This document shows positions 13,511-20,363 of a stretch of DNA of 25,963 bases, piece by piece. This DNA is from a bacterium. GTDB taxonomy: Bacteria; AUK180. The notes under the pieces were generated by a model. It worked only from the letters and a program-made list of their open reading frames with translations, made no database searches and was not told the DNA's origin. The position numbers and the translations under genes were made by a program. The stretch is from assembly GCA_030622125.1 (NCBI GenBank), contig JAUXGM010000010.1, positions 1 to 25,963 of the forward strand, read 5' to 3'. Position 1 is the stretch's first letter; each line of letters begins with the position of its first letter.

Positions 13511-15868
13511 ATGATTCTTATTATAACACACAATAACTCTGATTTTGACAGTCTTGCCTCAGTTTACTTTTTATCAAAATTGTATAAGGATAGTTTTATA
13601 TTGAAACCAATATCATTTGAAGAAGAGGTGGCAAGCTACATTAAAAGTAGTTCTTTAAAATTCCCATTTATTGAGAAAATTATCCCTGATAAGATTGAAC
13701 TTGTTATCTTTGCCGATTATCCAAAGAATAATGAAATATTAAAAAAATATGGTCTAACGAATAAAAAAATTGCTGTTTATGACCATCATTCATCAAATAA
13801 ATACGGAAGTAATATTGCTTTACTTTATTCCATTTTCAAAAACAAAATTAAAGATCTATCATCGGAAGAAGCATTACTTGCACTACTTGGTATCTATCAG
13901 GATACGGGAGGATTGACTTATGCATCTACCAAATCAACAGATTATATGGCAAGTAGTTTTTTTCTGAAATTCAAGCCGCATATTGAAAAAATTCCATATT
14001 ATTTGAAATATTTTGATCTAAATGATAAGGCATTAGAGATCATATCGGCTATCTCTAAAAATGCAACGGTTATGGGACCGTCCATCAGCAAAGTAATTAT
14101 CTCAAAATATGAAGTAAAAGATTATTATAAGGGTTATTCTATTTTGTTAAATCATTTGTTAAATATAAAAAAAGTATCGGCGATCTTTGTAATATTTATT
14201 TTTAAAAAGAGAATTATTTTAACGGGCAGAAGCATAGATCCATTTTTAAATGTTAATGAAATTTTAAACAATATAAAAAAAGGAAATGGACATTCATTGG
14301 CAAGTTCTCGCATTTTTAAAGGTGGTGATGCCCATATAATTAAAAGAAAATTACAATTAGTGGTTACCGACTATGTATTTTCGCAAAAGCTTTCCCTTTT
14401 TTTAGATAAGGTAAAGTTAGATCCGGAATTTTTTGTTCAAAAACAAAAAAACATTATAGGAACTCACAGAACATTATGGGAATATTTTGACCTGATATCA
14501 AAAGGAAAAAAAACTATAATTTCTTATAAAAATAAATACATCGGGGAAAAAGTAAAAAAATTGCTTCTTCCGCAAGTATTGATAACTTCACCGATGTTGA
14601 GTTTTCATGATAGAAAGAAAAATAATATTGCCGTTTCACTAAAAAAATATATATCAAGGGCATTTCCGGAAAAAGTAAAAAATCTTATTAAATTGATCTT
14701 AGCAATTTCGGAAAAGGAAAATGTTCGAATATTTATTGTTGGCGGAATACCGAGAGAACTCATGTTAAGATATTTAAGAAATGAAGAGGGTTTTCCATTC
14801 CAGGAGATTGATTTAGTGGTTGAAGGTAAAAATGCAATAACAATTGCAAAAAGATTATATAAAAATATGAAAAATGGGAAATTGCACACTTATAAGGAAT
14901 TCAAGACGGCGACTATTAAGATACCGAAAGAGGAACTCGATATGGATAAGGATCTATCCCTTGATTTTGCTACTGCAAGAAAGGAACATTATCAGTATGG
15001 GGGTGCACTACCAATTGTTAAAGATACTGATCTTGAAAATGATCTTTACAGAAGGGATTTTACAATAAACAGTATCGCAATTAGTTTAAATAAAGGAGAA
15101 TTCGGAGCTATCTATGATTATTTTGGTGGGCAAAATGATCTAAAAAACAAACGATTAAGAATACTTCATCAAAAATCATTTTTTGATGACCCAACAAGGG
15201 TATTGCGACTGATAAGATTTAAAAATAATCTCGATTTCATGATAGAGAAGAAAACAGAAAAAATTCTTCAATTTTCTCTTAATTTTGGGATCACGGAAGC
15301 AATAAAGGGTTTACGTTTAACACGGGAATTAAAACTAATATTTGAAAGTCAAAGACCGATAAACGGCATTGAAACACTTGAAAAATATGATCTAATATAT
15401 GAAATGTTCGGTATTGATAAACTCAATATTGATGAGATAAAAAATTTAAATAATGGAATAAATTGGTTTATCCGTCTCTATCCCGGTACTGAGATAAAAA
15501 AATATCTTATCTTTTTCGGATATTTTTTAAGGTTATCAAAAAAAATAGGGATAGATGAAACATTTGCTTTTAATAAAAAGGAACACAAAATAATAGATGA
15601 GATCTGTCATCTAAAAAAAACGCAATTAACGGGAAACTCAAGATTTTCTACATTTGATAAACATTTTAATTGGTTATCAATAGAGGCAAAAATATTTCAA
15701 ATTACACAATTTGAGGGTAGGACAAAAGAAAAATATATTCAGTATCTTCTCAAACTAATAAAATATAGACCTCGATTAAATGGTAGCGAAGTAAAAGAAC
15801 GCGGTTATAAAAATGAAGAGATCGGCATCTTCCTCACCAAAGAACGTCACCGTTGGCTGGATATGTAA
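13511..15868 (+). CDS. DHH phosphoesterase-CCA/poly(A) polymerase fusion
   Basis: A 785-aa fusion. The N-terminal DHH phosphoesterase (1-290) has HNNSDFD (7-13), Asp69, DHH (91-93), Asp131 in YQDTGG and the DHHA1 motif GNGHSLASS (258-266). The C-terminal half (about 395-785) is a tRNA nucleotidyltransferase/poly(A) polymerase: VGGIPRELML (410-419), EIDLVV (432-437), RRDFTIN (514-520) and DPTRVLRLIRF. Relatives with this architecture, for example in Aquifex and cyanobacteria, carry two CBS domains between and are longer; here the middle (about 300-390) is short and barely CBS-like. The metal motif reads E-x-D where D-x-D is usual. GGAG lies 7 nt before the ATG. Likely role: adding or repairing tRNA 3' ends, plus nucleotide or oligonucleotide cleavage. 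Confidence 0.9.
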   Translation: MILIITHNNSDFDSLASVYFLSKLYKDSFILKPISFEEEVASYIKSSSLKFPFIEKIIPDKIELVIFADYPKNNEILKKYGLTNKKIAVYDHHSSNKYGSNIALLYSIFKNKIKDLSSEEALLALLGIYQDTGGLTYASTKSTDYMASSFFLKFKPHIEKIPYYLKYFDLNDKALEIISAISKNATVMGPSISKVIISKYEVKDYYKGYSILLNHLLNIKKVSAIFVIFIFKKRIILTGRSIDPFLNVNEILNNIKKGNGHSLASSRIFKGGDAHIIKRKLQLVVTDYVFSQKLSLFLDKVKLDPEFFVQKQKNIIGTHRTLWEYFDLISKGKKTIISYKNKYIGEKVKKLLLPQVLITSPMLSFHDRKKNNIAVSLKKYISRAFPEKVKNLIKLILAISEKENVRIFIVGGIPRELMLRYLRNEEGFPFQEIDLVVEGKNAITIAKRLYKNMKNGKLHTYKEFKTATIKIPKEELDMDKDLSLDFATARKEHYQYGGALPIVKDTDLENDLYRRDFTINSIAISLNKGEFGAIYDYFGGQNDLKNKRLRILHQKSFFDDPTRVLRLIRFKNNLDFMIEKKTEKILQFSLNFGITEAIKGLRLTRELKLIFESQRPINGIETLEKYDLIYEMFGIDKLNIDEIKNLNNGINWFIRLYPGTEIKKYLIFFGYFLRLSKKIGIDETFAFNKKEHKIIDEICHLKKTQLTGNSRFSTFDKHFNWLSIEAKIFQITQFEGRTKEKYIQYLLKLIKYRPRLNGSEVKERGYKNEEIGIFLTKERHRWLDM

Positions 15869-15896: not shown

Positions 15897-16661
15897 TTAT
15901 TTTAGTGAAAGTTTTTTACTGTTTTTTCTAATATAAAATAAAAAAATTGCTGCTGAAAAAATTAAAAATACCAACAATAAAGGATTATTTTTAAAAATAA
16001 AATAATCAGAAATAATAATATTATTTATTTCTGTGTTGGCTATTAAATTAAGAATAATATGAAATCCAATGGGATAGAATATATTTTGGGTTTTTAAGTA
16101 TATATAACAGAAAAAAATTGACATTATAAAGAGAGGAACTGATGCTTGTATGTTAAGGTGAAGTATAGTAAATATAATAGAATTAAAAATAATTGCCAGC
16201 CACTTCTTTTCAATTTTTTTTAAAAAATAATTTAACATCATTCCACGAAATATAATTTCTTCGCAAATGGGGGCAATAATTACCGTGGTAATAAATAAAT
16301 CAAGCTTGCTGTCAAAAAAATTAGTAATTGATTGAAATCCAAATGAAGGAAGATATTTCGCTATATAAAACAAATAATTTATTGTAAGTATATAAAAAAA
16401 CGAAAATAAAAAAATAAATATATGTATAGAAATCCCTATTTTAATTTTATTGTTTTTGGGGAAATATTTTTTTATATTACTTCGATTTTTATAATATATG
16501 ATGATAACAGGAATTATACTAAGTGTTGTAGGAATTGGGAATTTTAATGTTTTTAATAAATTGTAAAATAATATTTGAAGGAAGCAAGAAATAAAAATAA
16601 TATGCCATATCCTTTTTTGTTGTTCTTCAATAATAGTTTTTTTATATTTTTCTAAATTCAT
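15897..16661 (-). CDS. CPBP intramembrane metalloprotease 1
   Basis: A 254-aa membrane protein with about seven hydrophobic segments and all three CPBP (Abi/CAAX protease-like) motifs: EEIIFRG (Glu134, Glu135, Arg139), FTILH (Phe164-His168) and HIILN (His201-Asn205). It should be an active metal-dependent protease of the membrane. Glu134/Glu135 match the positions in the second CPBP protein upstream, so the two are probably paralogues. The DNA is visibly more AT-rich than the housekeeping genes. A 158-bp gap with no clear promoter precedes it. In bacteria CPBP proteins act in peptide maturation, bacteriocin immunity or sigma-factor signalling; here the overlapping lipoprotein unit is the likely context. 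Confidence 0.9.
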   Translation of the reverse strand: MNLEKYKKTIIEEQQKRIWHIIFISCFLQILFYNLLKTLKFPIPTTLSIIPVIIIYYKNRSNIKKYFPKNNKIKIGISIHIFIFLFSFFYILTINYLFYIAKYLPSFGFQSITNFFDSKLDLFITTVIIAPICEEIIFRGMMLNYFLKKIEKKWLAIIFNSIIFTILHLNIQASVPLFIMSIFFCYIYLKTQNIFYPIGFHIILNLIANTEINNIIISDYFIFKNNPLLLVFLIFSAAIFLFYIRKNSKKLSLK

Positions 16662-16819
16662 TTTTTATAATGTAATGCATCCTTAATATTAAACAAAAAA
16701 GTCAATTTTTTGCTTTGCATTTTCATTGTTTTGGTTTTAGCATATTTTACACTCTTTTTCAAATTTACTCTCCATAAAAATTTATAATAATATTTAAAAC
16801 ATTATATATTCTTTTCGTA

Positions 16820-17602
16820 TTAAATAATTTGTTCTTTTCTTTTAAAAATTTTTAAAACAAAAATAAATAATAAAATCTGAGATGTTATTAATAATAGCAT
16901 GCTTATTAAAAACAATGGTTTCAACAAAAAATTAGGATCAATCAAAAACTTTTGAGAAATCGGTATAGCAATAAATTCACTATGAATATTTAATAAACTA
17001 TGTGTAATAATAGAATAAGTTATATTTTCAGTAATAATATAGACAACTCCAAGTATTATTGCCCACAATAAATGAAAGAAAAAATTATCATAATGACACT
17101 CATGTAAATAAACAAAAATTATTGAACTTATTAAAATAGCAATATATTTATTTGTATTTTTTTCAAAAAATTTTTGTAGTAACCCCCTAAATAATATCTC
17201 CTCATATAATGGTGCAAAAATGGTTGTCATAATTATAATGTTAATGCTGTTAATATTGATCCAAAGGTCACTATTTTTTATGTTATACAAAAAAAGAATA
17301 ATTATAGAAATAATAAAGAAAAAAACATATAAATAATAAAATTTTATTTCTTTTATATTATTTCTTTTAAATAAAAATAACCCTTTAATTTTTATCCTAA
17401 ACAAAAATAGAGCGAAAAAAAATACTATCAACGCTATAATTTGATAAAAAAATATGGTATTGAGGGGCAAATGCCCCCCAACCCACGGAATTGAGATTAA
17501 TTTATATAATCCCTTTCCGATAAAAAATAAAATAACAGCAAATAAAAATAATTTTATATCTTTTATTTTCTTATTTTTTATTGTATTTGACATTCCATAC
17601 AT
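16820..17602 (-). CDS. CPBP intramembrane metalloprotease 2
   Basis: A 260-aa membrane protein with about seven hydrophobic segments. The CPBP motifs are complete: EEILFRG (Glu134, Glu135, Arg139), FVYLH (Phe163-His167) and HSLLN (His191-Asn195). The reading frame begins inside the end of the lipoprotein gene: ATG at 17602 overlaps by 25 bp, or the next ATG at 17593 by 16 bp. Neither has a clear ribosome site, so translation is probably coupled to the lipoprotein. This tight link makes the lipoprotein its most likely substrate or partner, by inference only. The gene is very AT-rich. Confidence 0.9.
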   Translation of the reverse strand: MYGMSNTIKNKKIKDIKLFLFAVILFFIGKGLYKLISIPWVGGHLPLNTIFFYQIIALIVFFFALFLFRIKIKGLFLFKRNNIKEIKFYYLYVFFFIISIIILFLYNIKNSDLWININSINIIIMTTIFAPLYEEILFRGLLQKFFEKNTNKYIAILISSIIFVYLHECHYDNFFFHLLWAIILGVVYIITENITYSIITHSLLNIHSEFIAIPISQKFLIDPNFLLKPLFLISMLLLITSQILLFIFVLKIFKRKEQII

Positions 17603-18399
17603 TTTTTACATGCCGTTGTTGCATCACATTTTTTTATTTCATTATCTCTTGTTCCCACATCTTCTGGCGTTCTAAAACTGTTATAAAATGTACGCCAAGC
17701 AGCAATATAACACTCTGTACAGGTTGGACAATATACAGTTATACACAGTTGTTTTAGATATGGCTCAATAATATAGTCGTATGATAGTTTTACTACAAGT
17801 GCTCCGATGAACCAGCTAATCGGATCCATACCAGATATCTGACAAAAATTGAACATAATCGGATCTACCCCAATTAATTCAAGATCAGGATTATTTATGT
17901 AAAATTTTATTATTTCAAAATATTGATAAACTTTAACTCCAGTTAAATATTCATCTTCTGGAATCCACTTAAAAATTTTTTCATTAATATCATTTTCAAT
18001 TTTTTTCAATGCACCGTTATAATTTTTAACCTCCAACATGTTAATTAAGGCATAAACTTTATTTAAAAAAGCTTTTTTATGATTATCAGAATCAAATTGT
18101 ATGTAATCCTCATTAATACCGTTAGCAATTGTAATTGCAAAATCTTCAATTCCAGGATTTAACACCACTAAATTTTCCAATTCTTCTTCAGGAAATTCAC
18201 TTACTTCTAATATTCTAAAAGTATAATTCCCACAAAAATCTGGATTTAATCCGACATTTTCAGAATTTAATAATTTTATATTGTTATTATTTGGGGTCGT
18301 CTGCATGTCAGTGGTCTTTGAACACCCCACATAGACTAAACCAATGATAGCAATCAAAACTATCGCAATTATTGAAATATTTTTTTTGTTTTTAAGCAT
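17578..18399 (-). CDS. Cys-rich lipoprotein of unknown function
   Basis: I do not recognise a family. The 273-aa product starts with a lysine-rich signal peptide and a lipoprotein-like cleavage site before Cys26 (VYVGC; the Tyr is atypical). The body (about 45-200) is acidic and helical. The C terminus has eight Cys in two matching modules, Cys219-x4-Cys224-x2-Cys227-x2-Cys230 and Cys258-x5-Cys264-x2-Cys267-x2-Cys270, separated by 27 residues. An amphipathic stretch (about 196-216) precedes them. This looks like a metal-binding or disulfide-linked tail, or a cleavable Cys-rich peptide. A strong AGGAGG is 6 nt before the ATG. A long leader precedes it and CPBP protease 2 overlaps its end. Confidence 0.85.
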   Translation of the reverse strand: MLKNKKNISIIAIVLIAIIGLVYVGCSKTTDMQTTPNNNNIKLLNSENVGLNPDFCGNYTFRILEVSEFPEEELENLVVLNPGIEDFAITIANGINEDYIQFDSDNHKKAFLNKVYALINMLEVKNYNGALKKIENDINEKIFKWIPEDEYLTGVKVYQYFEIIKFYINNPDLELIGVDPIMFNFCQISGMDPISWFIGALVVKLSYDYIIEPYLKQLCITVYCPTCTECYIAAWRTFYNSFRTPEDVGTRDNEIKKCDATTACKKCMECQIQ

Positions 18400-18652
18400 T
18401 ACTGCCTCCTATAATTTTTAAGTATCTTGGCTTATTTTTTAAAGTGCAAACACCAATACTGCACTCTTACTTTATCTCTATCTGAAAATAAAAACAATGA
18501 CCATTGGACATTATGCCTTAGTAATTTCACACAAGACATTTGCAAATAACAATCCTTTAAATGATTGTTTGTTAACCTGTCAGAAAACTAATTTTCGGTT
18601 TTTTCTCTATAATCAAACCATAACCATAACATTTTAAAAGAACAGTATCATT

Positions 18653-18676
18653 TCCCCCATACAATTTTGTGGGGGA
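18653..18676 (-). other. GC-rich hairpin in lipoprotein leader
   Basis: Arms TCCCCCATA and TGTGGGGGA form nine pairs (one G-T) around a 6-nt loop. Neither strand has a T tail, so it is not a standard terminator. It stands out in AT-rich surroundings and sits inside the larger inverted repeat 18581-18703. Confidence 0.65.
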
Positions 18677-18784
18677 CCAACAGAATAAATTTAGTTTTCC
18701 TGATGGAAATGGTTTTTATATAAAGAGCAATCGAACATAATATTTTTAGATTATACTTTCTGTTTAGAGCGAATATAACAAGAA

Positions 18785-18868
18785 TTATAACGAATGGGGG
18801 GGGGTAATAATAGATTTAATTTGAAGTAATTGCGGATAATTAAGTTGATTTTGTTTTTTCATTCTCAT
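18785..18868 (-). CDS. Possible small ORF with C9 tract
   Basis: From the ATG at 18868 (a second ATG is at 18862) the frame encodes 27 aa. It contains nine C in a row (18804-18796), read ACC CCC CCC C. One extra C would keep the frame open to 18648, giving 73 aa with a hydrophobic stretch after the tract (PFVIILVIFAL). One fewer C gives a stop after about 17 codons. The ATG lies 17 nt after the TATAAT, the same short-leader layout seen for the FHA gene. There is no clear ribosome site and no recognised homology, so this may be chance. Confidence 0.3.
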   Translation of the reverse strand: MRMKKQNQLNYPQLLQIKSIITPPHSL

Positions 18869-18884
18869 TATCAAAATTTATGCT

Positions 18885-18912
18885 ATTATATCATTTAAAA
18901 TTTTAAAGTCAA
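18885..18912 (-). promoter_or_regulatory. Near-consensus promoter of lipoprotein operon
   Basis: On the minus strand, TTGACT (18912-18907), a 16-nt spacer and a perfect TATAAT (18890-18885). Predicted start is near 18878. It would drive the small ORF, lipoprotein and both CPBP genes. Confidence 0.7.
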
Positions 18913-18951
18913 GTACTTTTTTTATTTTTTTTTTGGTACTTCTTCTGTTTG

Positions 18952-20099: not shown

Positions 20100-20363
20100 T
20101 TAACACCGCCCTGTGATACATAAATAAGTGTTGTCAATGTTTTTTTTAGGTGCATAGTAGTGAAGAAGGGTTGGATTCGGACAAGAAAGTGTATAATTAC
20201 TGCCGGTATGAGTATAATTATAGGAAACAAAACTCACCGGACAGGAAGCAAATTTTGCTTTCTTTTTTGTGTATGCCATGCTTGGAATTGCAATTGCCGC
20301 TAAGATACCGATGATCGCTACTACTACCATAAGTTCAATAAGTGTCAAACCTCTCTTTTTCAT
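20100..20363 (-). CDS. Short Cys-rich type IV pilin-like protein
   Basis: An 87-aa prepilin. The type III signal MKKRG is followed by LTLIELMVVVAIIGILAAIA; cleavage after Gly5 leaves an 82-residue protein starting with Leu (Phe is usual) and with the conserved Glu at position 5. The mature part is short for a major pilin and holds four Cys (41, 61, 82 and 87 of the precursor), enough for two disulfides; the last is the final residue. It is probably a minor pilin or pseudopilin. No assembly ATPase, peptidase or secretin is in the window. A TTGACA-17-TATATT promoter lies upstream, and the CapA-like gene follows 15 bp later. Confidence 0.9.
   Translation of the reverse strand: MKKRGLTLIELMVVVAIIGILAAIAIPSMAYTKKKAKFASCPVSFVSYNYTHTGSNYTLSCPNPTLLHYYAPKKNIDNTYLCITGRC

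Follow-up and report, generated by a model that had tools for sequence, protein, structure and literature searches.

The window analysed here, a stretch of 25,963 nucleotides from a bacterium of the AUK180 lineage, carries one cassette of a polymorphic, lineage-specific lipoprotein family which most likely, at a probability that we place close to even, would work as a contact-delivered toxin/immunity-like system, its Cys-rich tails being membrane-active and its immunity proteins residing in the membrane. Three species, from deep-sea and marine hydrothermal sediments, make up the candidate phylum AUK180 (Candidatus Uvuciota; PMC11382960). The family to which the lipoprotein belongs is modular, with a constant 5' end, interchangeable tails and a matching partner gene.

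The gene layout described by an earlier, sequence-only reading of the window was confirmed. The lipoprotein gene (17578..18399, minus strand, as are the tail, domain, partner and leader features below) encodes 273 aa with a type II signal peptide and lipobox (VGC, Cys26; 18322..18399), the stretch DMQTTP, a helical central domain and a Cys-rich tail. Its 3' end overlaps the gene of the membrane protein CPBP1 (16820..17602, 260 aa) by 25 bp, an overlap that shrinks to 16 bp when translation is taken to begin at the second ATG, and CPBP2 (15897..16661, 254 aa) follows. Both were genuine CPBPs as had been claimed: they scored 67.8 and 84.0 bits against the Pfam Rce1-like model (PF02517, cut-off 22.4), and the motifs EExxxR, FxxxH and HxxxN were intact (EEILFR, FVYLH and HSLLN in P0002; EEIIFR, FTILH and HIILN in P0003). 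The lipoprotein itself matched no Pfam or NCBIfam family above the curated cut-off. GC contents in the cassette were 0.20, 0.20 and 0.29, and the GC3 values of 0.17, 0.19 and 0.21, compared to 0.24-0.33 in the other window genes measured, bore out that the unit is AT-rich, third codon positions included. The cassette adjoins a gene (window 13511-15868) whose 785-aa product resembles a fusion of a DHH phosphoesterase with a tRNA nucleotidyltransferase; this gene is conserved in all relatives, and its other neighbour varies among G001/G004, G003 and G002. A very short type IV pilin-like protein of 87 aa with four Cys is encoded at 20100-20363 of the window, beside a CapA-like gene.

Relatives of the lipoprotein were found in 6 of the 386 genomes searched, all in the window's class, which was sampled by seven genomes, and none outside it; they lie in the window's own taxonomic family (G001-G004) and in the wider class (G006), and the genomes of the window and its relatives are fragmented assemblies. 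When the window lipoprotein (P0001) was searched alone, the sole match was the AUK180 record JAGGYO01, which corresponds to G002; the AUK180 genome (Candidatus Uvuciota) is a close relative carrying the family. No relatives were found in plasmid and viral collections, and defence system models gave a chance-level match only. At least 10-11 copies were counted in G001. Each member opens with a lipoprotein signal, in most cases followed by a short 'DxQTTP'-like stretch; a helical central domain comes next, and the protein ends in a paralogue-specific tail, about 50-110 residues long except in C103, where it is longer. The central domain, at about residues 83-170 of the window protein (17890..18153, 'F..K..AFLNK...'), is common to the whole family according to the alignment and the 386-genome search, and falls into two diverged subtypes. 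No Pfam or NCBIfam domain was detected above cut-off in ten members, including any nuclease or other known toxin domain. FIMAH (PF22888) was rejected as an identity for the central domain, the best member (G006_C303) scoring 12.5 bits against a cut-off of 24.8. Three phospholipase-D-like lipoproteins of relatives (L049:532-1686, L067:6542-7627, L074:3814-4899) have a similar D-F/L-x-T-x-P stretch after the lipobox, which may serve to sort surface lipoproteins in this lineage. In G001_C9 (L061:7431-8282), an in-frame TGA interrupts the lipoprotein gene near the N terminus, so that a pseudogene or an error of sequencing is possible; the partner CPBP gene is intact.

The tail of the window lipoprotein (residues 186-273, 17581..17844) comprises an amphipathic segment and a putative helical hairpin with twin Cys modules. 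Cys residues are present at 26, 56, 186, 219, 224, 227, 230, 258, 264, 267 and 270, and the eight C-terminal ones form modules exactly where they had been reported, C219-x4-C224-x2-C227-x2-C230 (17710..17745) and C258-x5-C264-x2-C267-x2-C270 (17590..17628). Compared to 1 Cys in the 155 remaining residues of the mature lipoprotein, the tail contained 9 in 88, and Cys were likewise concentrated in the tails of the aligned family members. The spacing is 4-2-2-27-5-2-2 in the window and 2-2-21-5-2 in G001_C151a and G003_C9, and it exceeds chance because the pattern C-x2-C-x2-C ... C-x5-C-x2-C recurs in homologues of other genera. Looser counterparts were present in G001_C57, G001_C151b and G002_C213 and in none of the other members, and a second tail class, with the spacing ...16-4-1-2-1, was represented by G001_C99 and C81 and in a similar shorter form by C9. 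Conservation of the modules among homologues, on which the sequence-only reading depended, was found in a subset, but many homologues have other Cys patterns. A hydrophobic segment precedes the Cys modules in the window tail, and the C-terminal end has no basic stretch. AlphaFold, run on the tail alone and without relatives, returned an all-helical model of low confidence (pLDDT 63), too weak for a fold search; the model of the full lipoprotein, also without relatives, was useless (pLDDT 37), and a profile search of the PDB gave chance matches only (E 0.11 or worse).

The constant part of the family is most evident at the nucleotide level. The 5' block of the window gene (leader, start codon and signal peptide; 18293..18925) was 83% identical to that of an unlinked lipoprotein gene, G000_C25, from -526 to +106, rising to 86% in a 520-nt stretch of its upstream part, and the mature proteins are unrelated. 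Identities of 83-89% were found among G001_C103, C81 and C30 (about -158 to +64), of 90% between G001_C151a and C151b (-38 to +65), and of 85-87% across the first 100 nt of the G002 members; at the protein level, the N terminus of the window lipoprotein was 45-76% identical to the N termini of otherwise dissimilar lipoproteins. Between unlinked members, the 5' identity (83-90%) ended at +64 to +106 nt, just past the lipobox, and the mature parts were unrelated or far diverged, so that the tails and partners look reassorted, and the 5' modules appear to be recombining or duplicating. G001_C30 was 87% identical over its full length to its G004 orthologue, but its signal peptide looked nearer to those of other G001 genes, which suggests homogenisation within a genome. 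A second mature domain type, with Cys-containing WTxEELNEYAE repeats behind a similar signal, was seen in G000_C25 (L013:16112-16825), L065:7729-8445 and L064:7339-8043; G000_C25 also has the window-type leader, and its downstream neighbour is secreted and in places gluzincin peptidase-like.

The leader contains a promoter, TTGACT-16-TATAAT with a TG extension (18885..18912; 11/12 matches), which is predicted to be strong and also occurs in G000_C25 and the G002 copies. Downstream lies a poly-C tract of 9 C (18796..18804), with 8, 10 and 12 C in other copies. A phase-variable leader peptide, encoded by an upstream ORF through this tract, was considered and rejected: 19 of 28 changed codons were non-synonymous, and the frame appears free of coding selection because substitutions fall evenly over the codon positions (11/12/9). 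Further on, a hairpin CCCCCA...TGGGGG is followed by a boxA-like TGTTCTTT(G/T)AAAA (18653..18676) in four leaders, with weak covariation; together, the hairpin and the boxA-like TGTTCTTTTAAAATG (window 18631-18676) are reminiscent of rRNA antitermination leaders. The leader matched no known RNA family, with no Rfam match above threshold.

At nearly all loci, a partner gene was found directly downstream of the lipoprotein gene. The partners are CPBPs in the window, C99, C81 and C9, and in C30 and C34 a 667-aa protein with an N-terminal CPBP domain, in which FALFN replaces FxxxH (G001_C30/G004_C34). Unrelated multi-TM proteins (3-6 TM, 120-165 aa) follow C57, C151a, C151b, C213, G003_C9, C128 and C1, and the partner of G003_C31 (241 aa, six TM, without EExxxR) is possibly a degenerate CPBP. 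Members with soluble tails (G001_C137, G001_C103, G004_C35, G006_C303) have secreted or lipoprotein partners. In two soluble-tail members, which end in C-x-C motifs (L017:11072-13559, L057:5399-8101), propeller-like lipoproteins of about 550 aa come next, a possible secreted partner class. All tails of the TM-type or CPBP class with a readable downstream gene were followed by a multi-TM partner whose gene overlaps or lies no more than about 31 bp away, except G002_C183, for which no convincing partner was found. The class of the partner thus tracks the tail. The window is a partial exception and the matching imperfect, because its tail spacing resembles tails that pair elsewhere with small 4-TM proteins, yet its partner is a CPBP. 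G001_C151a and G003_C9, with related Cys tails (SW Z = 16.5) and diverged central domains, had small membrane partners that resemble each other more than those of any other non-orthologous pair (Z about 4.3-4.7, 0/500 shuffles), and for the other same-tail pair (C151b, C213) the partner similarity ranked third of 27, similarity between small hydrophobic proteins being hard to judge. The family also showed an accessory distribution: the C151 cluster of G001 was absent at the syntenic C18 site of its congener G004, where the flanking DUF134-like gene is 94% identical. No orphan immunity genes were found, the weak matches L146 and L147 not being adjacent to relatives.

The link between the lipoprotein and CPBPs was evaluated in G001 alone, taking gene number as one per kb. 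The window was left out because it was the starting point. In G001, 5 of 12 CPBP genes touched the lipoprotein family compared to 0.09 expected (P about 8e-9). In a CPBP tree, the family-linked proteins clustered (3 label changes vs 7.1 in shuffles) without forming one clade; they sat on long branches, and several unlinked CPBPs had close orthologues. CPBP2 was related to CPBP1 with SW Z = 11.2 and to the CPBP linked to G001_C81 with 19.5. The adjacency is far above chance, but about 7 of 21 family loci adjoin a CPBP domain, the majority of the rest having small multi-TM partners of unrelated sequence, and CPBP as a universal partner was rejected, other partner types being common.

A constant carrier, a swappable tail, a co-translated tail-matched partner and an accessory distribution together make the pattern of a polymorphic toxin/immunity system, and the pairing of membrane-type tails with membrane partners suggested membrane-active toxins. 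The lipoprotein would be displayed at the cell surface, and its Cys-rich, amphipathic or membrane-spanning tail, probably stabilised by disulfides, would attack related cells nearby at their membrane. Protection of the producer would fall to the co-translated membrane partner, which would bind the tail or cleave it within the membrane; in the window, CPBP1 would be this partner and CPBP2 may confer a second or alternative specificity. Because the partner slot also accommodates unrelated proteins and CPBP-like ones with degenerate catalytic sites, binding or sequestration is favoured over a common proteolytic step, and the pattern fits a binding role for all partners. The window CPBPs, in which all catalytic motifs are kept, could act by cleavage. 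More tentatively, and with confidence well short of even, the family may represent a new class of contact-dependent antagonism, in which disulfide-rich, membrane-active helical tails are swapped, integral membrane proteins are the cognate guards, CPBPs have been recruited as tail-specific immunity, and 5' modules recombine within a genome.

The sequence-only reading had proposed a precursor-plus-protease unit. Its lipoprotein-CPBP link is real and its Cys module recurs, but 'precursor plus protease' does not describe what the loci have in common, because CPBP is only one of several partner types. What would speak against the proposal was found in half measure: most homologue loci have no adjacent CPBP, and the Cys modules are kept only in a subset. 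In its fullest form, this explanation holds that the CPBPs cut the Cys-rich tail from a precursor and free a peptide (a bacteriocin, a pheromone or another signal), the small membrane proteins elsewhere being exporters or helpers. Both window CPBPs keep every motif, the translational overlap suggests a fixed ratio, and the CAAX protease SilX of S. anginosus, a CPBP proposed to process a signal peptide, is required to make the bacteriocin but not to confer immunity (PMC9298176). At most loci, however, the partner is not a recognisable protease, related partners have lost catalytic residues, and the cassette has neither a double-glycine leader nor an ABC exporter. The constant 5' end, variable tail and matching partner therefore favoured guarding, that is immunity, over maturation, which we consider unlikely as a general account but deserving some weight; maturation is possible at loci with intact CPBPs, the window included.

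The homogenised 5' ends on diverged mature parts, the leader tract of 8-12 C, and the existence of members that differ in mature domain and are paired with secreted proteins (G000_C25, G003_C19) would also be expected of variable surface lipoproteins, in which one promoter, leader and signal is copied onto many mature domains for antigenic (Vsp/Vlp-like) or phage-receptor diversification and the downstream membrane genes are assembly helpers or incidental. Tight tail-matched membrane partners and the CPBP enrichment are left unexplained by this account, and the poly-C tract lies in a non-coding leader whose apparent upstream ORF has no codon-position bias; we regard it as quite unlikely. A sensor or sorting unit, in which a CPBP anchors or frees the lipoprotein by cutting it close to the membrane, as myxosortases do, or relays a signal, is highly improbable. 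CPBP myxosortases sort Cys-containing C termini in Myxococcota (PMC11980579), and the window CPBPs gave sub-threshold matches to the Mrt models, but the scores were far below the cut-offs (29.3 bits vs 100 for Mrt_core, 41.7 vs 75 for MrtJ), the tail order is the reverse of MYXO-CTERM, with the hydrophobic segment before the Cys and no Arg-rich end, and the cassette has no regulator gene. A myxosortase/MYXO-CTERM identity was rejected on model scores and tail order; the likeness is limited to a CPBP protease and C-terminal Cys, and here each CPBP gene lies beside its one lipoprotein.

Under the toxin/immunity reading, the closest system in layout is SitA/SitI of myxobacteria, the organisms from which polymorphic lipoprotein toxins, killing with nucleases, are known in detail (PMC5562445, PMC8546572). 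Both have a lipobox N terminus, a constant N-terminal and a polymorphic C-terminal part, a partner gene immediately downstream, an accessory distribution, several copies per genome and lineage-restricted N-terminal domains. The likeness is one of layout: the tails of SitA work as nucleases in the cytoplasm and are countered by immunity proteins of the SUKH or other types, whereas the tails here are small hydrophobic or Cys-rich ones with integral membrane partners. With the CPBP/Abi bacteriocin immunity or processing factors (PF02517; SilX, PMC9298176), the window shares true CPBPs with intact motifs, encoded together with a variable-tail protein. Those factors, SilX and reportedly others, go with small secreted peptides bearing peptide leaders, whereas here the CPBPs accompany lipoproteins with a large central domain and are interchangeable with unrelated membrane proteins; a 273-aa lipoprotein with a type II signal peptide also differs from a class II bacteriocin, with its short precursor and double-glycine leader. 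In the contact-dependent glycine-zipper bacteriocin CdzC/CdzD with CdzI, the hydrophobic toxin stays on the cell surface and immunity comes from a small transmembrane protein, and the G002_C183 tail looks glycine-zipper-like, but the Cdz proteins leave the cell through a type I system and have not been described as lipoproteins (PMC5380434), and most tails here are Cys-rich helices. Halocin C8 was considered as an analogue of the Cys-rich tails and is not claimed as one.

If the toxin/immunity reading is true, lipoprotein carriers combined with Cys-rich tails that act on membranes, and with CPBPs or small membrane proteins as partners, would extend the principle of polymorphic lipoprotein toxins to an uncultured candidate phylum. 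The family would also be a natural test of whether prokaryotic CPBPs serve as proteases or in immunity, because the partner position within one family seems to be taken by intact CPBPs at some loci, by CPBP-like proteins with degenerate catalytic sites at others, and elsewhere by unrelated membrane proteins.
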